A stretch of 64,000 nucleotides of DNA from an uncultured Psychroserpens sp. (GTDB lineage: Bacteria > Bacteroidota > Bacteroidia > Flavobacteriales > Flavobacteriaceae), in the NCBI RefSeq assembly GCF_947500255.1, contig NZ_CANMRL010000003.1:496001-560000 (forward strand). The letters run 5' to 3'. The translations under genes and the position numbers were made by a program. Below are positions 42,732 through 52,416 of this stretch, piece by piece (within the stretch, counting starts at the first letter, position 1; the number at the start of each line of letters is the position of its first letter). The notes under the pieces were generated by a model. That model was not told the origin of the DNA and did not search any database. It worked only from the letters and a program-made list of their open reading frames with translations.

Positions 42732-42784
42732 TGTTAAATTATGTTTAACTTTTAATTTTAATGATTAAACATTTTGTATCTTTA
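42732..42784 (+). promoter_or_regulatory. Composite operator-promoter of the TetR-like operon (copy 1 of 2)
   Basis: TGTTAAA (from 42732), TGTTTAA (42742-42748), 16 bases, TTAAACA (42765-42771), five bases (TTTTG), TATCTTTA (42777-42784, a near -7 box). ATG is at 42803. The same elements with the same N16 and N5 spacing precede the gene at 46990. The usual -33 TTG is absent; the palindrome occupies that place. Confidence 0.7.
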
Positions 42785-42802
42785 CAGTACAATTTAACAG
42801 TC

Positions 42803-43459
42803 ATGGCAAAAAAGAAAACTATTACAAACAACGACATCATTTCGATGTATATGGACTATGTTTTAGAGCATAATCAACAACCCAATACAGTATATGCCTT
42901 TGCTAAGGCCAATAACTTCGAAGAACAAAAATTCTATGATCACTTTGGATCTTTTGAAGCATTGGAAAAAGATGTATTTAATGCATTCTTTCACAATACG
43001 ATTAAAGTTTTAGAAAAAAGTGAAGACTATCAAACCTTTGATTCACGACACAAGCTATTGAGCTTTTATTTTACCTTCTTTGAAAATCTTACGGCTAATA
43101 GAAGCTATGTAAAATACGCCTTAGATCGTCATAAGAATAGTCTTATAGGCTTGAGCTTACTTTCTGAATTAAAGGGCTCTTTTACAAATTATATTGAACA
43201 TCTTGGAATTGAACTTATCGAAATTAAACAAGAGCAAATTGATCGGATTCAACGTCGCGGACTTAAAGAATCTGCTTGGCTGCAACTACTGCTAACTATG
43301 AAATTTTGGATTGATGACACTTCTGCTGGTTTTGAAAAAACAGATATTTTTATAGAGAAATCTGTAAATACAAGTTTTGATGTCTTAGACATTGCTCCAA
43401 TCAAAAGCTTAATAGACTTTGGGAAATTTATTTTCAAAGAAAAAATTCACATGAACTAA
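42803..43459 (+). CDS. TetR/AcrR-like transcriptional regulator
   Basis: 218 residues from ATG 42803. The N-terminal 60 residues have the TetR-like helix pattern (NDIISMYMDYVLEHNQ, TVYAFAKANNFEEQKFYDHF), in which the recognition helix follows a Thr-x-x-x-F-A turn; the remaining helices form a ligand/dimer domain. It heads an operon with an ABC1 kinase, flavin reductase and SDR, behind a palindrome that it might bind itself. The first 14 codons of the open frame upstream (from 42761) overlap the operator and are rejected as coding. Confidence 0.78.
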   Translation: MAKKKTITNNDIISMYMDYVLEHNQQPNTVYAFAKANNFEEQKFYDHFGSFEALEKDVFNAFFHNTIKVLEKSEDYQTFDSRHKLLSFYFTFFENLTANRSYVKYALDRHKNSLIGLSLLSELKGSFTNYIEHLGIELIEIKQEQIDRIQRRGLKESAWLQLLLTMKFWIDDTSAGFEKTDIFIEKSVNTSFDVLDIAPIKSLIDFGKFIFKEKIHMN

Positions 43460-43469
43460 TCTGCTCTCT

Positions 43470-44780
43470 ATGAAAACTATAGACAAAATACCTACATCTA
43501 AAATACAACGAGCAACAAAACTAGTATCAACAGGTGCAAAAGTTGGCGTTAATTATCTAAAATACTATGGAGATAAGCTAACAAAATCTGAAACTGAAGC
43601 CAAAGAACGACTCAATCAAAACAATGCAGAAGATATTTATGATGGTTTAAAACAACTCAAAGGAAGTGCACTTAAAGTAGCGCAAATGCTAAGTATGGAA
43701 AAAAGCATTTTACCTCAAGCTTATGTTGAAAAATTTTCATTGGCTCAATTTTCAGTACCACCATTATCACCTCCATTAGTATTAAAGACATTTAAAAAAT
43801 ACTTTGGTAAACTACCAAATGACATATATGATACCTTTAACGCAACTTCTGTTAACGCTGCAAGTATAGGACAAGTCCATGTTGCAGAAAAAAATGGGAA
43901 AAAACTTGCTGTGAAAATCCAATATCCAGGAGTTGCTGAAAGTATCGCCTCAGATCTTGCAATGGTTAAACCCATAGCCATGAGTATGTTCAACATTAAA
44001 GGAAAAGATTCTGATAAGTACTTTAAAGAAGTTGAAGGTAAATTAATTGAAGAAACAAATTATATATTGGAAGTTGAGCAAAGTAAAGAAATTGCTCAAA
44101 AATGCGCTCATATACCAAATCTTTTGTTTCCTCAATACTATGAAGATCTATCCTCTGAACGTATTATTACCATGGATTATATGATTGGTGAGCACCTTTC
44201 AGAATTTTCAGCTTATAATACAAACCAAGAGTTTTCCAATCAATTAGGTCAAGCACTTTGGGACTTTTACATGTTCCAAATTCATAAGTTAAAGAAAGTA
44301 CATGCCGACCCTCATCCTGGAAATTTCTTGGTGTCTAAGGACGGACAACTTATTGTTCTTGATTTTGGCTGTATGAAATCTATTCCTGAAGAGTTTTATG
44401 TTCCTTATTTTGAACTAGCCGAAAGAGAGAACATTAATAACCGTGAGTACTTTGTTGAGAAATTATATCAACTCGAAATATTGAGAACAGATGATAGTCC
44501 TAAAGAAATAGCCTTCTTTACAGAGATGTTTCATGAAATGCTAAGTTTATTTACACAACCGTTTCACTCAGAAATTTTCGATTTCTCAGATGGCGAATTC
44601 TTCGGAAAAATTGCCGAATTAGGTGAGCGTTATTCAAAAAGTACCGAATTAAGAAAAATGAATGGTAATCGCGGATCTAAACATTTTATTTATATCAATA
44701 GAACATTCTTTGGTTTATACAATCTTATGTTTGACTTAAAAGCTAAGAACATAAAAATCAACAACTTCAATACTTTGTAA
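43470..44780 (+). CDS. ABC1/AarF/UbiB-family atypical kinase
   Basis: 436 residues. Kinase-like motifs: KGSALKVAQMLSM (the KxGQ-like region), NAASIGQVHVAE (Ala-rich loop), LAVKIQYPG (Lys), HADPHPGNFLV (catalytic Asp/Asn) and VLDFGCM (metal Asp). The family supports ubiquinone or other isoprenoid lipid metabolism and stress tolerance. Here it follows the TetR-like gene by 10 bases and overlaps the flavin reductase start by one base (TAATG). Confidence 0.92.
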   Translation: MKTIDKIPTSKIQRATKLVSTGAKVGVNYLKYYGDKLTKSETEAKERLNQNNAEDIYDGLKQLKGSALKVAQMLSMEKSILPQAYVEKFSLAQFSVPPLSPPLVLKTFKKYFGKLPNDIYDTFNATSVNAASIGQVHVAEKNGKKLAVKIQYPGVAESIASDLAMVKPIAMSMFNIKGKDSDKYFKEVEGKLIEETNYILEVEQSKEIAQKCAHIPNLLFPQYYEDLSSERIITMDYMIGEHLSEFSAYNTNQEFSNQLGQALWDFYMFQIHKLKKVHADPHPGNFLVSKDGQLIVLDFGCMKSIPEEFYVPYFELAERENINNREYFVEKLYQLEILRTDDSPKEIAFFTEMFHEMLSLFTQPFHSEIFDFSDGEFFGKIAELGERYSKSTELRKMNGNRGSKHFIYINRTFFGLYNLMFDLKAKNIKINNFNTL

Positions 44781-45397
44781 TGACATACATTAGTAATGAG
44801 CAACTCGATAATTTTCATCATATATACCGAATCAATCTAATTAACAGTTGTTCAGGTTATAAGTCTGCAAATTTATTAGGTTCATCATCTGCTAATGGTA
44901 TTGAAAATGTTGCAGTGTTTAGTTCTGTGACACATATTGGTTCAAATCCTCCAATGCTCGGTTTTTTCTTGAGGCCAACCACAGTCATGAGAAACACCTA
45001 TGAAAACCTAAAAGCGTCAGGATACTATACTATAAATCACATTCACGAATCTATCCTAGAGGACGCACACCATACCTCAGCCAAATACGATGTAGATATT
45101 TCAGAATTTGACAAAACGAGTCTCATTTCAGAATATAAAAATGAATTTCAAGCACCATTTGTGAAAAATGCTCCCATACAATTAGCAATGCAATATGTTG
45201 AAGAATATGAAATTAAAGCCAATGACACTATTCTTGTCATAGGGAAAATAGTAGGCTTATATATTAATGATAACATATTGGAAGATGACGGTTTTATAAA
45301 CTTATCTAAAGCTAAGGTAGCAGCTATAAATGGCTTAGATGGTTATGCTGTGCCAGAACTAAAAACACGTTTTGGGTATCAACGACCAAAATTATAA
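44780..45397 (+). CDS. Flavin reductase-family (flavoredoxin) protein
   Basis: 205 residues, split-barrel FMN-binding fold. SCSGYKSANLLGSSSANGIENVAVFSSVTHIGSNPPMLGFFLRP, recognised by its ends SCSGYKSANL and PPMLGFFLRP, is the FMN-binding opening, and MRNTYENLKASGYYTINH follows as in the family. It reduces flavin or uses bound FMN for electron transfer. Third gene of the TetR-led operon, so a redox partner for light or oxidative stress is plausible. Confidence 0.88.
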   Translation: MTYISNEQLDNFHHIYRINLINSCSGYKSANLLGSSSANGIENVAVFSSVTHIGSNPPMLGFFLRPTTVMRNTYENLKASGYYTINHIHESILEDAHHTSAKYDVDISEFDKTSLISEYKNEFQAPFVKNAPIQLAMQYVEEYEIKANDTILVIGKIVGLYINDNILEDDGFINLSKAKVAAINGLDGYAVPELKTRFGYQRPKL

Positions 45398-45400
45398 CGA

Positions 45401-46825
45401 ATGAAAATTCTTGTAACAGGCGCCACAGGTTATATTGGTAAACGGTTGATTCCGTTACTAAACAATGATGGGCATCATGTCGTGTGCGCTGTTAGAGACA
45501 AACTGCGTGCTGATAAAGGTTATGCAGACGACAACGACATAGATATTATAGAAGCCGATTTCTTGAAACCTGAAACACTTCACAATATTCCTAATGATTT
45601 GGATGCTGCGTTTTACTTGATTCATTCCATGTCTAATTCGTCTAAAGATTTTGAATCCCTTGAGGAACGTTGCGCAGTCAACTTCAAAAATCAATTAGAG
45701 AAAACTAAGGTTAAGCAAGTTATTTATCTCAGCGGAATTACTAATGAAGATAATCTATCTAAACATTTACAATCACGTAAAAATGTTGAAGACACCTTAA
45801 AATCTGATCAATATGCGCTTACAATTTTCAAAGCGGGAATAATTGTTGGTTCTGGCAGTTCTTCATTTGAGATCATTAGGGACTTGGTAGAGAAACTCCC
45901 TTTTATGATTGCGCCCAAGTGGTTAAATACTAAAACGCAGCCATTAGCTGTAAGAGATGTATTATCTTTTTTACATCGTAGTGTCGGATGCAAAAAACTT
46001 TACAATAAATCCTTTGATGTCTATGGTCCAGAAATTTTAACCTACAAGCAAATGCTTTTACAATTTGCAGAAGTAAGAGGATTGAAACGATATATACTAA
46101 CAGTCCCAGTGATGACACCAAAACTATCCTCTTATTGGTTGTATTTTGTGACCTCAACATCCTATAAATTAGCGACATCATTAGTAGATAGTATGGGTGT
46201 TCAAATTATAGGAAAGCCAAGTAATATCAACAACATTTTAGATGTTAATCCAAAATCATACAAAGAAGCTGTTGAACTGGCTTTTGAAAAAATAGAGCAA
46301 AATAGTATCATATCCAGTTGGAAAGATTCTATGGTTAGTAGTGGGCGATTGAGAAACAACGTTCATAAGTACATCAATGTTCCAAAATTTGGGTGTTTTA
46401 AAGATTATAAAGAACGTCAAGTCAAGGATTCTAAAAAAACCATTGATAAAATTTGGAGTATTGGTGGTACTACTGGTTGGTATTACGGTACATTTCTGTG
46501 GAAATTAAGAGGTTATATTGACAAACTATTTGGTGGTATTGGTTTACGTCGAGGACGTACAAGTCCCACAAATCTTGACGTTGGTGATGCTTTAGATTTT
46601 TGGCGTGTCATATTTGCCGATAAAGAACAGCAAAAACTACTACTCTATGCAGAAATGCGTCTACCTGGAGAAGCATGGTTAGAATTTAAAATTGAAGACA
46701 ATTTACTTAAACAAACCGCTACATTTAGACCTCGCGGACTTTGGGGACGATTGTATTGGTATAGCGTATTACCTTTTCATGGGCTCATTTTTTCTGGAAT
46801 GATCAATAAACTTGTTGATGTTTAA
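45401..46825 (+). CDS. NAD(P)-binding SDR-type oxidoreductase with DUF2867 tail
   Basis: 474 residues. Atypical SDR N-terminus with MKILVTGATGYIGKRLIPLL (glycine loop) and AFYLIHSMSN, VKQVIYLSGI. The C-terminal 170 residues form DUF2867 (WSIGGTTGWYYGTFLWKLRG, LDVGDALDFWRV, LPGEAWLEFKI, FRPRGLWGRLYWYSVLPFH). Homologues sit near photolyase and folE genes in other bacteria. Substrate unknown. Last gene of the first operon of the light-stress island. Confidence 0.88.
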   Translation: MKILVTGATGYIGKRLIPLLNNDGHHVVCAVRDKLRADKGYADDNDIDIIEADFLKPETLHNIPNDLDAAFYLIHSMSNSSKDFESLEERCAVNFKNQLEKTKVKQVIYLSGITNEDNLSKHLQSRKNVEDTLKSDQYALTIFKAGIIVGSGSSSFEIIRDLVEKLPFMIAPKWLNTKTQPLAVRDVLSFLHRSVGCKKLYNKSFDVYGPEILTYKQMLLQFAEVRGLKRYILTVPVMTPKLSSYWLYFVTSTSYKLATSLVDSMGVQIIGKPSNINNILDVNPKSYKEAVELAFEKIEQNSIISSWKDSMVSSGRLRNNVHKYINVPKFGCFKDYKERQVKDSKKTIDKIWSIGGTTGWYYGTFLWKLRGYIDKLFGGIGLRRGRTSPTNLDVGDALDFWRVIFADKEQQKLLLYAEMRLPGEAWLEFKIEDNLLKQTATFRPRGLWGRLYWYSVLPFHGLIFSGMINKLVDV

Positions 46826-46913
46826 TAAAAACTACTACTTCAATTTACTTTAAAGACTTTAACTTTTTGCAAATCAATAATTTACGTTACTATAAATAAA
46901 ATCTATAGTAATA

Positions 46914-46967
46914 TGTTAAATTTTTGTTTAATCATATTTAATAAACTTTAAACATTTTGTATTTTTG
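46914..46967 (+). promoter_or_regulatory. Composite operator-promoter of the second stress operon (copy 2 of 2)
   Basis: TGTTAAA (46914-46920), TGTTTAA (46925-46931), 16 bases, TTAAACA (46948-46954), five bases (TTTTG), TATTTTTG (46960-46967, exact -7 box). Geometry equals the copy at 42732-42784. No -33 TTG. Confidence 0.72.
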
Positions 46968-46989: not shown

Positions 46990-47415
46990 TTGATTTTAGA
47001 TTCCACACATTCTAATAAAGAGCATAAAAAAATCATTGTTGATTTGATTGGCAAACCCTTTTCATTTTTTGAGGCTCTCAAAATGAAAGGGATAGGGTCT
47101 AAACGTATGATTATTGAAGATGTGAGTCCGAATATGACTCAATATCTTAACAAGGTTTCAGACATTAATTATGCTAACATAGAAATGCGATCGCATGGCA
47201 TATTGATTTATATTAATAAAGGTCTAAAAAACTTTACTTGGATTATCCCCTATTATCAATTAGTGATATACAAGACAAATGGAACTAGCATTCATGCTCA
47301 AGGAAAGTATATTCACTTTAGAAACAGCAAAACCTTTAAAGAGAACAAACAGTTTTTTGATAAACTTTTACAAGCAAAAGTAAAATATGATGAACAATTT
47401 AACTTTCAGTTTTAA
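46990..47415 (+). CDS. Conserved-type hypothetical protein, TTG start
   Basis: 141 residues from TTG 46990; the next in-frame ATG is 31 codons later and would cut into what looks like a folded domain. The protein has an amphipathic start (DSTHSNKEHKKIIVDLIGKP) and an alternating strand/helix end (SHGILIYINKGLKNFTW, YYQLVIYKTNG, KYIHFRNSKTF), perhaps a PH-like fold; this is a guess. It sits 23 bases after the -7 box and 5 bases before the TIGR03643 gene, in the operon led by the second composite operator. Confidence 0.7.
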   Translation: MILDSTHSNKEHKKIIVDLIGKPFSFFEALKMKGIGSKRMIIEDVSPNMTQYLNKVSDINYANIEMRSHGILIYINKGLKNFTWIIPYYQLVIYKTNGTSIHAQGKYIHFRNSKTFKENKQFFDKLLQAKVKYDEQFNFQF

Positions 47416-47420
47416 CGTGT

Positions 47421-47693
47421 ATGGAATTAGATGTAAGAGCGACTGATAGAATAATAGAAATGGCTTGGGAAGACAGAACCACTTTCGAAGCTATAAACTT
47501 TCAATTTGGTCTAAAAGAACAAGATGTGATTGAATTGATGCGCAAAGAAATGAAACCAAAAAGTTTTAAAATGTGGCGCAAACGTGTTCAAGGAAGAAAA
47601 ACCAAACATGAAAAACTAAGATCATTTCTAGAAGGACGTTTTAAATGTTCTAGACAAAAACAAATTACACACAACTCGATTTCAAAACGATAA
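47421..47693 (+). CDS. TIGR03643-family (DUF2805) small protein
   Basis: 90 residues with the family signature: DRIIEMAWEDRTTFEAINFQF, QFGLKEQDVIELMRKEMKP and SFKMWRKRVQGRKTKH. The fold resembles a small helix-turn-helix. Family members lie beside photolyase/cryptochrome and folE genes in many marine bacteria, which fits this neighbourhood. Molecular role unknown. The region just after its stop forms a nested hairpin before folE. Confidence 0.9.
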   Translation: MELDVRATDRIIEMAWEDRTTFEAINFQFGLKEQDVIELMRKEMKPKSFKMWRKRVQGRKTKHEKLRSFLEGRFKCSRQKQITHNSISKR

Positions 47694-47748: not shown

Positions 47749-48444
47749 ATGAGTACAAACACTTTAAACCTCAAAAAAAACGGCCACAACCTCAACAGAT
47801 TTTCAACTACTGATATTGGTGACGACCATCTTTTTACAGGATTAGAAACTCCAATGAAAAAGGATGCTTTTAAACTTAGTGATGATGAAAAAAAGCAACG
47901 TATTGCTATCTTATTTGAAGAGATTATGGACGTTATGGGATTAGACCTTACTGACGATTCTTTAAAAGGTACACCCAAGCGTGTAGCAAAAATGTATATC
48001 GATGAAATATTTTCAGGTTTAAACCCTAATAACAAACCTAAGATTGCACTTTTTGATAATAAATACCAATATAATCAGATGTTGGTAGAAAAAAATATTA
48101 CGTTTTATTCAAATTGTGAGCATCATTTCGTACCAATCATCGGCAAAGCACATGTGGCTTACATTTCATCTGGCAAAGTAATAGGTTTATCAAAATTGAA
48201 TAGAATAGTTCAATACTACGCTAAACGTCCACAAGTACAGGAACGTTTAACCAATCAAATAGCCGAAGAATTGAAAAACGTATTAGAGACTGAAGATGTT
48301 GCAGTAATTATAGATGCTAAACATTTATGTGTCTCATCAAGAGGAATTAAAGATGATACTTCGGCGACGGTAACGACCTATTACGGCGGACAATTTAATA
48401 AAGCAGAAAAAATAACAGAATTACACAACTATATAAACAATTAA
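47749..48444 (+). CDS. folE: GTP cyclohydrolase I
   Basis: 231 residues. Converts GTP to dihydroneopterin triphosphate, first step of tetrahydrofolate/pterin synthesis. Zinc and active-site motifs: FYSNCEHHFVPI (Cys-Glu-His-His), GKAHVAYISSGKVIGLSKLNRIV in part, QVQERLTNQIA and KHLCVSSRGIKD (second Cys). A non-conserved N-terminal 40 residues precede the catalytic domain. In a photolyase-linked operon it may supply the folate-type antenna cofactor. A structured leader lies upstream. Confidence 0.96.
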   Translation: MSTNTLNLKKNGHNLNRFSTTDIGDDHLFTGLETPMKKDAFKLSDDEKKQRIAILFEEIMDVMGLDLTDDSLKGTPKRVAKMYIDEIFSGLNPNNKPKIALFDNKYQYNQMLVEKNITFYSNCEHHFVPIIGKAHVAYISSGKVIGLSKLNRIVQYYAKRPQVQERLTNQIAEELKNVLETEDVAVIIDAKHLCVSSRGIKDDTSATVTTYYGGQFNKAEKITELHNYINN

Positions 48445-48448
48445 GATT

Positions 48449-48673
48449 ATGGAATTAATAAATAGAGCATTAGAATTTGAGCAAAGAAAAATGCGATCAT
48501 TATCTACTAGTGATCGTGTAAAGATTTCACGTGAAGCCAAAGCGTTAATTTTAGATTTAAATCAAATCTATAAGCAGAAAAAAGACCAAAACATCATGGA
48601 AATCATGAAGCGTTTGACAGTAATAAAAAGAAAAGTTGAGAAGCGCCTAAAAGGAGCGCCATTAACTGCATAA
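48449..48673 (+). CDS. Small helical protein of the folE operon
   Basis: 74 residues, highly charged and helical: FEQRKMRSLSTSDRVKISRE, then LNQIYKQKKDQNIMEIMKRL and IKRKVEKRLKG. It starts 4 bases after folE. Homologous short proteins accompany folE in Flavobacteriaceae; no domain or function is known. Possibly a coiled-coil adaptor. Confidence 0.75.
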   Translation: MELINRALEFEQRKMRSLSTSDRVKISREAKALILDLNQIYKQKKDQNIMEIMKRLTVIKRKVEKRLKGAPLTA

Positions 48674-48693: not shown

Positions 48694-48735
48694 GAGCGTA
48701 ATGGATAGCTTCACTTACAGCTATCTATTACGCTC
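48694..48735 (+). terminator. 17-bp stem-loop after the folE operon
   Basis: GAGCGTAATGGATAGCT pairs with AGCTATCTATTACGCTC (one G-U), 8-base loop. The sequence after it (TATTTATAAT) is not a clean U-run, so it may be a terminator, an RNA stabiliser, or an operator for the SDR gene at 48760. Confidence 0.6.
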
Positions 48736-48759: not shown

Positions 48760-49443
48760 ATGAAGACCTATATCGTCATCGGTGGTAGTAAAGGCATAGG
48801 GAATGCTATAGTAGATCTCTTGTTAGAACAAAATAAAATCATCAATATAAGTCGTACGAAACCTGAAAATTCTCACGACAATTTAACGCATTATAATTGT
48901 GATATTCTGTCTGATGAATTACCAAATATTGAAAGTGCTGATGGCTTAGTATATTGCCCTGGTAGTATAAATTTAAAACCTATTGGTCGCTTTATATTAG
49001 ACGATTTCCGAGAAGATTATGAAATTAACGTCATTGGAGCTGTAAAAGCAATCCAAAAGTACTTAAACGTGATTAAGAATGGTGACGATCCATCAATTGT
49101 TTTATTTAGCACAGTGGCTGCCAAATTAGGTATGCCTTTTCATGCTAGCATTGCTGCAGCCAAATCTGGAGTTGAAGGTTTAGTTAAATCTCTTGGTGCA
49201 GAATTAGCAACATCATTACGAATTAATGCCATAGCTCCTACCGTAACAAATACGGAGTTAGCTGCAAAACTACTACGCAACGAAAAAATGATTGAAAATA
49301 TTACCGAACGACACCCAATGAAAAAGTTCTTACAACCAAAGGATGTTGCTGGAATGGCAGAATTCTTGCTTTCTGAAAAAGCAAACTCAATATCTGGACA
49401 AGTATTTGAAATGGATTATGGTATCGTAAGCTTTAAAATTTAA
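48760..49443 (+). CDS. Short-chain dehydrogenase/reductase
   Basis: 227 residues, classical SDR. IVIGGSKGIGNAIVDLL is the cofactor loop; VYCPGSINLKPIGRF replaces the NNAG motif; FSTVAAKLGMPFHASIAAAKSGVEG carries Ser and the x-x-x-K motif, but the usual catalytic Tyr (YxxxK) reads H-A-S-I-A-A-A-K here, with His/Ala in place of Tyr, so classic catalysis may be altered. Part of the stress island, followed by glutathione peroxidase after 2 bases. Substrate unknown. Confidence 0.85.
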   Translation: MKTYIVIGGSKGIGNAIVDLLLEQNKIINISRTKPENSHDNLTHYNCDILSDELPNIESADGLVYCPGSINLKPIGRFILDDFREDYEINVIGAVKAIQKYLNVIKNGDDPSIVLFSTVAAKLGMPFHASIAAAKSGVEGLVKSLGAELATSLRINAIAPTVTNTELAAKLLRNEKMIENITERHPMKKFLQPKDVAGMAEFLLSEKANSISGQVFEMDYGIVSFKI

Positions 49444-49445
49444 TT

Positions 49446-49988
49446 ATGAAACCTTTACTTATTTTTATGACGACTCTTTTTTCAAAACCTAAAACTCAAC
49501 AACCAGTGGATAATGCATCACTTTACGATATGAAAATCAACCTTTTAAATGGGGAATTTTTAAATCTATCTAAATACAAAGGAAAACACTTACTGTTTGT
49601 AAATGTTGCTTCAAAATGCGGATTTACATCACAATACAAAGACCTTCAAAAACTCTACAACACTTACCAAGATACGTTGGTTATTATAGGTGTTCCATGT
49701 AATCAGTTTGGAAATCAAGAACCAGGAGATTCTCGTGAAATAGAATCTTTTTGTGAAGTAAATTATGGAGTTACATTTCCTATAACAGAAAAAATTAATA
49801 CTAAAGGGATAAAACAACATTCACTATATCAATGGTTAACCCAAAAACGAAGAAATGGTGTTAAAAACTCTAGTGTAAAGTGGAATTTCCAAAAATATCT
49901 GGTAGGACCCAATGGAGAACTCATCGATTTTTACTATTCGATGACATCACCAACAAGTCCAAAAATAACTAAACATCTAAAGCAATAA
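49446..49988 (+). CDS. Glutathione peroxidase-family protein (Cys type)
   Basis: 180 residues. Peroxidatic motif VNVASKCGFTSQYKDLQKLY with Cys in place of selenocysteine, then GVPCNQFGNQEPG (resolving region and Gln) and SSVKWNFQKYLVGPNG (Trp and Asn of the catalytic tetrad). It detoxifies H2O2 or lipid peroxides using thioredoxin or a thiol. The first 25 residues are extra relative to the family core and could be a weak membrane anchor. Confidence 0.93.
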   Translation: MKPLLIFMTTLFSKPKTQQPVDNASLYDMKINLLNGEFLNLSKYKGKHLLFVNVASKCGFTSQYKDLQKLYNTYQDTLVIIGVPCNQFGNQEPGDSREIESFCEVNYGVTFPITEKINTKGIKQHSLYQWLTQKRRNGVKNSSVKWNFQKYLVGPNGELIDFYYSMTSPTSPKITKHLKQ

Positions 49989-49991
49989 TCT

Positions 49992-50159
49992 ATGCTCGCA
50001 TTATTTAAAAAAACATCTGAGTTGGACAAGCTTCAGAAGAGATACGAAAAACTAATGAAAGAATGGCATACATTATCAGCTACAAACAGAGGAGAAAGTG
50101 ATAAAAAATATGCCGAAGCTCAAAAAATACTCGATCAAATAGAAATCCTTCAAAAGTAG
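49992..50159 (+). CDS. Lacal_2735-family (DUF6435-type) small protein
   Basis: Short ORF of 55 residues from ATG 49992 to TAG 50159, charged and helical: MLALFKKTSELDKLQKRYEK, then LSATNRGESDKKYAEAQKIL, ending EILQK. This pattern is familiar as the Lacal_2735 family of Flavobacteriaceae. Function unknown. It starts 3 bases after glutathione peroxidase and ends 6 bases before tspO, so it is co-transcribed. Confidence 0.8.
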   Translation: MLALFKKTSELDKLQKRYEKLMKEWHTLSATNRGESDKKYAEAQKILDQIEILQK

Positions 50160-50165
50160 ATTCAG

Positions 50166-50627
50166 ATGAAATTTTTGAAAATTTTTATCGTATTCTTAAT
50201 CATCAACTTTGGTGCATTGGGCATTGGCTCATGGCTTATGGCAGAAGGACCTCAAGGCGATTGGTATTTAACACTTGAAAAAGCTCCTTGGACACCAGAT
50301 GGTTGGGTTTTTGGAGCGGCTTGGACTACCATAATGATTTGCTTTTCAGTATATATGTCCTTTCTCTATTTAAAAAGACCAACACAAAAAATCATAGTAT
50401 TATTTGCCATACAATTCATACTTAATGTAAGCTGGAATTTTATATTTTTTCACCAAAAACTGGTAGACATAGCTTTGATAGATATTGTGCTACTAACCAT
50501 TATTGTTACTGCATTTTTATTTACGTATGTCAAAGATTTAAAAGCAAAATCTCTTTTCATACTTCCTTACTTAATTTGGTTGTGCATTGCTACATCACTT
50601 AATTTATACATTTTATTATACAACTGA
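50166..50627 (+). CDS. tspO: TspO/MBR-family tryptophan-rich membrane protein
   Basis: 153 residues with five helices. Trp-rich hallmarks: LEKAPWTPDGWVFGAAWTTI (loop 1 porphyrin region), and NVSWNFIFFHQKLVDIALIDI in helix 3-4, abbreviated. TspO binds porphyrins and haem precursors and is linked to light and oxygen responses in other bacteria. Location within an operon with glutathione peroxidase and photolyase supports a photo-oxidative stress role. Confidence 0.93.
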   Translation: MKFLKIFIVFLIINFGALGIGSWLMAEGPQGDWYLTLEKAPWTPDGWVFGAAWTTIMICFSVYMSFLYLKRPTQKIIVLFAIQFILNVSWNFIFFHQKLVDIALIDIVLLTIIVTAFLFTYVKDLKAKSLFILPYLIWLCIATSLNLYILLYN

Positions 50628-50628
50628 T

Positions 50629-51096
50629 ATGAAAATTTACAGATTACATAAAAAACAGAACTTACCAATCTCTGTTGAAACTGCTTGGGATTTTTTATCC
50701 GACCCAAATAACCTTAAGACAATTACACCTGACTATATGGGATTTGAAATCTTATCTGGAGCAGATCGCCCTATGTTTGCTGGTCAAATCATTCAGTATA
50801 TAGTGACTCCTGTTCTAGGTATTAAAACAAAATGGGTTACCGAAATAACTCATAGCATTGATAAACACTATTTTGTAGATGAACAACGTTTTGGACCATA
50901 CGCCTTGTGGCACCATAAACATTTCATTAAAGAAATAGAAGGTGGTGTAGAAATGGAAGATATTATTGATTACAAAGTTCCCTTCGGAATTATAGGTCAG
51001 CTCGTACATCCAATACTCGTAAAACCAAAATTGGAAGAAATTTTCAACTATCGTACTAAGAAATTAGAAGAACTATTCGGAACTTACACCAAATAA
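50629..51096 (+). CDS. SRPBCC-family (START/Bet v1-like) protein
   Basis: 155 residues from ATG 50629. YRLHKKQNLPISVETAWDFLSDPNNLKTITP is recognised by its ends LPISVETAWDF and PNNLKTITP, followed by KWVTEITHSIDK and ALWHHKHFIKEIEGGVEMED, typical of the polyketide-cyclase-like fold with a large ligand cavity. It is one base after the tspO stop and 15 bases before the photolyase gene. Ligand unknown; a hydrophobic or porphyrin-like molecule is conceivable. Confidence 0.85.
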   Translation: MKIYRLHKKQNLPISVETAWDFLSDPNNLKTITPDYMGFEILSGADRPMFAGQIIQYIVTPVLGIKTKWVTEITHSIDKHYFVDEQRFGPYALWHHKHFIKEIEGGVEMEDIIDYKVPFGIIGQLVHPILVKPKLEEIFNYRTKKLEELFGTYTK

Positions 51097-51111
51097 GACA
51101 ATTGACCTTTT

Positions 51112-52416
51112 ATGAAACAACCCCTTAGTATTTTTTGGTTTAGACGTGATCTTAGACTTGATGACAATGTAGGCTTATATAAAGCTCTTAAGAGTGATTA
51201 TCCTGTCTTACCTATTTTTATCTTTGACTCAGAAATACTAAGTAAACTTCCAGAAAATGATGCTAGAGTCACTTTTATTCATGATACTTTACAGAAAATG
51301 CGAATAGCACTTCATGAAGAACACAACAGTAGTATTGCCATGTTTTATGGAAAACCAATAGATATATATGAGCAGTTAGTTAAAGATTATGATATCCAAG
51401 TTGTGTATACCAATCACGATTATGAACCCTACGCTAGAGAACGAGATAATGAAATAAAAAGGCTTTTATCCAAAAAAAATATTGAATTCAAAACGTTTAA
51501 AGATCAGGTCGTTTTTGAAAAAGATGAAGTGGTAAAAAAAGATGGTAATCCATATGTAGTTTATACACCTTACATGAAAGTATGGAAAGCCCAATTTAGA
51601 ACTCGTAATCTTGATTTTTTTCATACAAACCCTCTTTTAAAGAACCTAATCAAGCACACGAACTTACCTAATTTGAGTTTATTTGATATCGGATTTAAAA
51701 CGTCAACCCTAAAGATAGCTAAGTATGATGTAACACCTACATTGATTCAAGACTACGAAAACACTCGTAATTTTCCAGCTAAAGACTCGACATCTCGATT
51801 AGGTCCGCATCTACGTTTTGGAACTGTAAGCATTCGGAAAATGGTAAAGAAAGCCGTAGCCGAAAACAATGAAATCTTCTGGCAAGAACTAATTTGGAGA
51901 GAATTTTTCATGCAGATATTATGGCATTTTCCACATACAGCAACAGAATCATTTAAATCCAAATACGACAGAATAGAATGGCGCAATAACGAAGATGAAT
52001 TCCAACTTTGGTGTGAAGGAAAAACTGGATATCCTCTTGTTGATGCCGGAATGCGACAACTCAACCAAACCGGATTTATGCACAATCGTGTGAGGATGCT
52101 AGTTGGTAGTTTTTTATGTAAGCACTTACTTATTGATTGGCGTTGGGGCGAAGCTTATTTCGCTGAAAAATTACACGATTATGACATGGCAAGCAATGTT
52201 GGAAACTGGCAATGGGTTGCAGGTTCTGGAGTTGATGCTGCACCATATTTCAGGATTTTTAACCCAACCTCTCAAATCCAAAAGTTTGACAAGGATCATA
52301 CATACATCAAAACTTGGGTTCCAGATTACCAAGAATTTACTTATCCTAAACCCATTGTTGATCATAAAGAAGCTAGAGAACGTTGTCTTAAAACATATAA
52401 AGAAGCACTGCAATAA
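51112..52416 (+). CDS. phrB: Deoxyribodipyrimidine photolyase/cryptochrome (class I type)
   Basis: 434 residues. The N-terminal antenna domain begins IFWFRRDLRLDDNVGLYKAL. The FAD domain (about 215-425) includes RLGPHLRFGTVSIRKM, WQELIWREFFMQILWHFP, GYPLVDAGMRQLNQTGFMHNR in part, and SNVGNWQWVAGSGVDAAPY, the Trp/Asn-rich FAD pocket. Repair of UV-made cyclobutane dimers by blue light is the likely function; a signalling cryptochrome role cannot be excluded. Last gene of the light-stress operon, which also makes the pterin precursor (folE). Confidence 0.95.
   Translation: MKQPLSIFWFRRDLRLDDNVGLYKALKSDYPVLPIFIFDSEILSKLPENDARVTFIHDTLQKMRIALHEEHNSSIAMFYGKPIDIYEQLVKDYDIQVVYTNHDYEPYARERDNEIKRLLSKKNIEFKTFKDQVVFEKDEVVKKDGNPYVVYTPYMKVWKAQFRTRNLDFFHTNPLLKNLIKHTNLPNLSLFDIGFKTSTLKIAKYDVTPTLIQDYENTRNFPAKDSTSRLGPHLRFGTVSIRKMVKKAVAENNEIFWQELIWREFFMQILWHFPHTATESFKSKYDRIEWRNNEDEFQLWCEGKTGYPLVDAGMRQLNQTGFMHNRVRMLVGSFLCKHLLIDWRWGEAYFAEKLHDYDMASNVGNWQWVAGSGVDAAPYFRIFNPTSQIQKFDKDHTYIKTWVPDYQEFTYPKPIVDHKEARERCLKTYKEALQ

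Follow-up and report, generated by a model that had tools for sequence, protein, structure and literature searches.

An inverted-repeat operator in flavobacterial promoters that probably answers to a CarH-type B12 light sensor

A stretch of 64,000 nucleotides from an uncultured Psychroserpens sp. of the Flavobacteriaceae (contig NZ_CANMRL010000003.1, positions 496,001 to 560,000; hereafter the window) carries two operons whose promoters share a composite element (Table 1). In each, the half-sites TGTTTAA and TTAAACA form an inverted repeat, or dyad, with 16 bases between them, and five bases further on lies the -7 box of the promoter. An earlier note on this DNA had proposed that one regulator controls both operons, either the TetR-like protein encoded first or an unlinked, light-dependent MerR protein of the LitR/CarH kind. 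Sequence comparisons make it very probable that this element serves as operator for a B12 photoreceptor-repressor of the CarH type (class I LitR), whose gene lies elsewhere in the genome (C6:27167-28060).

Table 1. Features of the two promoters and of the genes behind them (window positions).
Feature	Position	Strand	Basis or remark
Upstream direct repeat TGTTAAA	42732..42738	+	starts 10 bases 5' of left half-site of operator 1
Left half-site TGTTTAA, operator 1	42742..42748	+	pattern match, kept in relatives
Right half-site TTAAACA, operator 1 (inverted)	42765..42771	+	pattern match, kept in relatives
-7 box TATCTTTA, promoter 1	42777..42784	+	sequence and alignment of relatives
TetR-like protein (PF17931 C-terminal domain), first gene of operon 1	42803..43459	+	family search
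ABC1-type atypical kinase, operon 1	43470..44780	+	family search
Flavin reductase-like protein, operon 1	44780..45397	+	family search
SDR with DUF2867, operon 1	45401..46825	+	family search
Upstream direct repeat TGTTAAA	46914..46920	+	starts 11 bases 5' of left half-site of operator 2
Left half-site TGTTTAA, operator 2	46925..46931	+	pattern match, second-site alignment
Right half-site TTAAACA, operator 2 (inverted)	46948..46954	+	pattern match, second-site alignment
-7 box TATTTTTG, promoter 2	46960..46967	+	sequence and second-site alignment
Hypothetical protein hyp141 (141 amino acids), first gene of operon 2	46990..47415	+	
DUF2805 / TIGR03643 protein, operon 2	47421..47693	+	family searches
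folE, GTP cyclohydrolase I, operon 2	47749..48444	+	family searches
Small open reading frame (74 amino acids) directly 3' of folE	48449..48673	+	read from sequence; under the length limit of the reading-frame list
17-pair hairpin, terminator-like	48694..48735	+	between folE operon and SDR-photolyase genes
SDR, GPx-like, TspO, SRPBCC-like and photolyase genes	48760..52416	+	family matches; GPx-like named by eye

The full composite pattern occurs without mismatch at 42742-42783 and 46925-46966, and the two copies have the same TTTTG linker and identical N16 and N5 spacing; these features, with the TGTTAAA 10-11 bases upstream, stand in the sequence exactly as they had been described. The dyad measures 30 bp, with its inverted half-sites 23 bp apart from centre to centre. 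When three mismatches or fewer are allowed, 0.10 matches to the full pattern are expected, and two were reached in 1 of 100 shuffles. The 4.0 Mb genome holds four exact copies of the dyad TGTTTAA-N16-TTAAACA, half of which lie in the window, against about 0.14 expected from the half-site frequencies within the window. At two mismatches, there is no clear enrichment either in the window (3 matches against 2.45 expected) or in the genome (120 matches, 96 for the control). Since such loose dyads hardly exceed the control, only strict or conserved sites carry meaning, and a genome-wide regulon search with two to three mismatches was dropped as too noisy.

That near-equality at two mismatches is what could be said for a chance arrangement or a simple AT-rich repeat, an explanation that is scarcely credible in view of the spacing and of the strict counts. 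When TGTTTAA-Nk-TTAAACA was sought with k from 0 to 40 in 80 loci of relatives, k=16 gave 128 sites and every other k gave 0 to 2. Across 120 Flavobacteriaceae genomes the strict pattern gave 247 forward and 268 reverse matches, in which a single dyad may be counted on both strands, compared with 7 and 7 for a reversed control.

The 80 loci are the best of 262 confirmed matches to the TetR-like protein, a non-random sample of 1.28 Mb in total. A dyad lies within 150 bases upstream of the TetR gene in all of them (75 exact, 5 with one mismatch); the start of the TetR-like gene at 42803 is consistent with the alignment of these loci. By downstream gene, the 128 N16 sites divide into TetR 75, hyp141 25, SDR/DUF2867 3 (in 3 of the 80 loci this homologue is preceded by a dyad of its own), folE 1 and SDR227 1, and 23 remain without a gene assignment, 21 of these being less than 200 bases from the end of a locus.

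When aligned, the 68 TetR promoters that are non-redundant give TGTTAAATTTTGTTTAAC-N14-GTTAAACATTTTGTATCTTTA. Bacteroidota promoters have the consensus TTTG at -33 and TAnnTTTG at -7, with a usual distance for the -33 element. The -7 box is conserved in these 68 promoters and in 40 promoters of the second site, while no TTG is conserved at the usual -33 distance in either set, which bears out the earlier observation that this TTG is missing from the window promoters. The upstream TGTTAA is also phased. Among 78 TetR promoters it is shifted by 10 bases in 44, by 8-9 in 5, and by 7 or 11-17 in none; among 54 second sites it is shifted by 10 or 11 bases in 29 and by 9 in 4; the other promoters of both kinds are without it in strict form. 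As to the idea of a head-to-tail binder, raised on account of this period, the 10-11 base repeat is phased in relatives as well, but the main element is inverted.

The carH-type gene of this genome adjoins crtI (named from its sequence), and a one-mismatch dyad lies between the two. Its product has an N-terminal MerR-type helix-turn-helix (HTH; PF13411, 1e-14) and a B12 domain (PF02607) above cut-off, and its best PDB matches are solved CarH chains. Because it scores 70 bits against a cut-off of 400 for the NCBIfam CarH equivalog NF052513, the protein is called CarH-type here and is not filed as an equivalog. A cobalamin adenosyltransferase, needed for making adenosylcobalamin (AdoCbl), is encoded in the same genome. 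Among the CarH loci of relatives (the best 30 of 105 genomes with a match), the Wx9EH motif and the axial-His motif [E/D]xHxxG for AdoCbl are present in all 30, and the gap between carH and crtI contains a dyad that is exact in 19 and recognized by a looser pattern in 23. In the carH-crtI promoter, the -7 box TAnATTTG overlaps the right half-site.

This arrangement bears on how a CarH-type protein would act. It might bind the dyad and activate, alone or with the help of a further activator, given a core promoter that has no -33 element, as the absence of a conserved TTG from the 68 and 40 promoters would allow. LdrP of Thermus, reportedly a positive regulator of the CRP/FNR type for light-inducible genes, would be a possible precedent, going by a title cited in PMC7064467. 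We consider activation unlikely, since the operator covers the promoter, and at crtI even the -7 box, which suits repression.

The question of which protein reads the site was approached by searching the 120 genomes for CarH, for TTGTTTAA-N16-TTAAACA and for the TetR-like protein. The strict motif is present in 97 of the 105 genomes that encode any CarH and in none of the 15 others (p 1e-13, although Fisher values here and below overstate the association since the genomes are related). CarH matches of 41% identity or more were treated as orthologs and those of 33-37% as distant forms, a cut set after inspection of the results. Within the ortholog-bearing genomes, the motif occurs in 76 of 78 that have the TetR-like protein and in 18 of 19 that do not (p 0.48), one genome (G017) having been counted as TetR-negative because its match is a fragment with stops.

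These counts speak directly to the possibility that the palindrome is the binding site of the TetR-like protein of operon 1, which would then regulate both itself and operon 2. TetR proteins usually bind palindromes, and in every one of the best 80 loci the site precedes the protein's own gene, but the operator does not track the TetR gene, whose presence among genomes with a CarH ortholog has no detectable effect on the motif, and the site also stands ahead of crtI and fasciclin genes. Furthermore, the putative recognition helix is acidic and varies between genomes whose operator is the same (16 sequences, by eye). The TetR-like protein was rejected as the binder on this HTH variation and on co-occurrence, and we regard it as a very improbable regulator; its way of binding DNA may not be the usual one. 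Of the two candidates named in the earlier note, the unlinked CarH/LitR-like protein is the one supported, by adjacency, co-occurrence and co-variation, and the proposal of a single regulator for both operons is well supported.

Co-occurrence by itself cannot name the binder, and some other regulator that accompanies CarH could in principle occupy the dyad. Such a stand-in is distinctly unlikely, because at carH/fasciclin and TetR promoters a letter of the operator shifts with the CarH recognition helix, and because the half-site agrees with the contact consensus published for CarH (PMC8156234). CarH proteins with a recognition helix reading RKWE, as opposed to RIWE, accompany dyads of the type TGTCTAA...TTAGACA; RKWE relatives were added to the sample after such dyads had shown up. 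The TGTCTAA type occurs, with the layout kept, at the TetR promoters of 5 of the 9 RKWE genomes that have a TetR match (exact in G035, G121 and G122, with one mismatch in G124, and as N17 in G037). Of the carH loci (gene and flanks) that belong to 13 RKWE proteins, 12 contain a TGTCTAA dyad at N16 or N17 when one mismatch is tolerated, and 9 contain it at N16, some of the N17 sites matching TGTCTAA and TGTTTAA equally. Over spacings from 5 to 30 in 24 distant-CarH loci, TGTCTAA dyads number 14 at N16, 11 at N17 and 2 elsewhere. Exact TGTCTAA dyads occur in 6 of the 120 genomes, 3 of the 7 with RKWE (G029, G035, G119) and 3 of the 113 others (G005, G019, G105; Fisher p 0.002).

The exact TGTTTAA dyad, for its part, is found at 6 of 11 other distant CarH loci, among them 4 of the 5 that come from the order but not from this family (G131, G132, G135 and G142; not G141). 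In a tree, the 13 RKWE proteins form one clade (96/77), and the sister protein from G022 keeps the isoleucine (RIWE); the TetR promoter of G022 reads TGTTTAA. A plausible contact, judged from these letters, is that of the lysine with the guanine opposite the operator C. G119 encodes two CarH proteins (L187, L191), one beside crtI and one, of the RKWE kind, beside a fasciclin gene.

Comparison with known systems places the genes and their logic in a known kind. The protein resembles CarH of Thermus thermophilus and Bacillus megaterium (class I LitR) in its MerR HTH and B12 domain, its Wx9EH and axial-His motifs, its crt gene neighbour, its operator over the promoter and a half-site that fits the TnnACA contacts. 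The contact unit described for CarH is nAnnTnnACAn, in tandem 11-bp repeats of which Thermus has three and Bacillus four (PMC8156234). Read as the reverse complement, nTGTnnAnnTn, this unit matches the upstream TGTTAAAT-T in full and the TGTTTAA half-site in TGTnnA, the last T being weakly kept at the half-site (43%). Unlike these systems, the one described here extends to operons beyond crt, and its protein lies under the NCBIfam cut-off.

The regulon also recalls the class II LitR proteins PplR and PmlR of Pseudomonas, which control PhrB, FolE, CryB and others, with photolyase, FolE, SDR and FAD oxidoreductase in common and two half-sites at a fixed distance, one of them over the -35 element in Pseudomonas (PMC9758184). 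There, however, the operator is T(G/A)TACA-N12-TGTA(C/T)A, to which the window sites have no match by eye, and a LOV photoreceptor is the partner (PMC9758184), whereas here the dyad is N16 and the B12 motifs are intact. A plastic operator design is shared with CarA/CarH of Myxococcales, where inverted repeats were once proposed for CarA; later work there favours direct repeats, the inverted ones being degenerate between genera (PMC9304148), whereas the inverted spacing of the present dyad stays constant from genus to genus. No report of a flavobacterial CarH/LitR operator of this layout was found among the titles and abstract openings listed in searches of open-licence papers; as far as those searches reach, neither the constant inverted N16 arrangement nor its broad use across the order has been described.

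Several observations weigh against the assignment to a CarH-type repressor. A tandem 11-bp direct-repeat operator was not found at these promoters; some of them add a single direct repeat, at 10-11 bp, to the 30-bp inverted dyad, unlike the three or four tandem repeats of Thermus and Bacillus. To the related genomes behind the Fisher values and the low equivalog score must be added three genomes with a CarH ortholog and no exact motif (G018, G078, G119; the G018 TetR promoter has a one-mismatch dyad), three with the motif and only a distant CarH (G006, G022, G025), and 7 of the 30 CarH loci, which have no dyad even by the looser pattern. Within the RKWE group, no dyad was found at the TetR promoters of G013, G120 and G123, and that of G119 has a mixed dyad with one half of each type. 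Since the RKWE proteins form one clade, the change is a single event, visible at several promoters. Finally, the flavobacterium Chryseobacterium lacus reportedly makes light-induced carotenoids without car or lit operon genes, by a mechanism that the authors call unknown in their strain (PMC7064467).

The genes next to the dyad were surveyed at 51 distinct sites in 60 pattern-search loci, 30 of which came from ten genomes chosen for high or odd counts, and gene starts were sought within 200 bases on either side. At 34 of the 51 sites the neighbour is a crtI, fasciclin, TetR, hyp141, SDR, SRPBCC or TspO gene (fasciclin 12, crtI 8, TetR 4, hyp141 3, SDR/DUF2867 3, SRPBCC 2, SDR227 2, TspO 1, with one SDR227 site shared with TetR). 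The fasciclin group is one BLAST cluster, of which one member was checked against Pfam. CIA30, heme oxygenase, GHMP kinase and FAD amine oxidoreductase genes appear once each, and 13 sites have none of these genes starting within the 200 bases. The fasciclin gene of the Psychroserpens genome has a one-mismatch site 45 bases upstream. According to a review, a part for TspO in light-regulated expression has been proposed in Dokdonia (PMC8243069).

Other dyads of the Psychroserpens genome were not counted as regulon members. One-mismatch dyads precede each of two similar, nearby GLPGLI-type genes (by eye) at C1:48219 and C1:54053 (L005, L006). Exact dyads lie at LacI/SusC genes (C1:458784, named by eye) and between an ABC-F gene and katG (C7:113107, L004/L020, names by eye), the latter about 190 bases ahead of katG with a hairpin-like repeat between. 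At four loci (L149, L154, L156, L192), an htpG-like gene starts within 200 bases of a dyad, often opposite to TetR.

In the window itself, hyp141 matches nothing in Pfam or NCBIfam at E 0.001. The earlier suggestion that the folE operon might reach the photolyase gene was not shown, a terminator-like hairpin of 17 pairs lying between them. This hairpin is very stable (z -7.7 over an 86-base stretch), and operon 2 probably ends there, short of the photolyase gene. No dyad with two or fewer mismatches precedes the gene group at 48760..52416 in the window; homologues of its SDR, TspO and SRPBCC genes do have a dyad in other genomes.

From the motif, its conservation, the genes, co-occurrence and co-variation, all of which are observed, we infer binding, repression and a response to light. 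In the dark, AdoCbl-bound CarH would occupy both inverted half-sites and, where present, the upstream TGTTAAA. It would thereby extend over the position of a -33 element as far as the -7 box and bar RNA polymerase from the promoter. Light would break the Co-C bond and CarH would leave the DNA, allowing transcription of operon 1 (TetR-like, ABC1, flavin reductase, SDR) and operon 2 (hypothetical, DUF2805, folE), with crtI and a fasciclin gene derepressed together with them. The bacterium thus probably switches on its sunlight-protection genes through one B12 light sensor. We also lean towards a broader proposition, that a Flavobacteriales CarH with an undescribed operator geometry runs a multi-operon light regulon of carotenoids, folE/pterin, the TetR-ABC1-flavin operon and fasciclin lipoproteins, and that one clade has swapped specificity, with Lys replacing Ile/Val in the recognition helix and C replacing T in the operator.

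The mechanism in Chryseobacterium lacus may differ, as the strain is reported to be without car and lit genes (PMC7064467). The tandem-repeat binding mode described for CarH leaves the inverted operator unexplained, and in TGTTTAA and TGTCTAA nature supplies a pair of CarH specificities. A link to light would be gained for genes whose role is unknown (DUF2805, the TetR-ABC1 operon and the fasciclin lipoproteins). For a large bacterial family, a candidate regulator and its operator can now be named for the light control of pigment and photoprotection genes, and the question of that control becomes directly testable.

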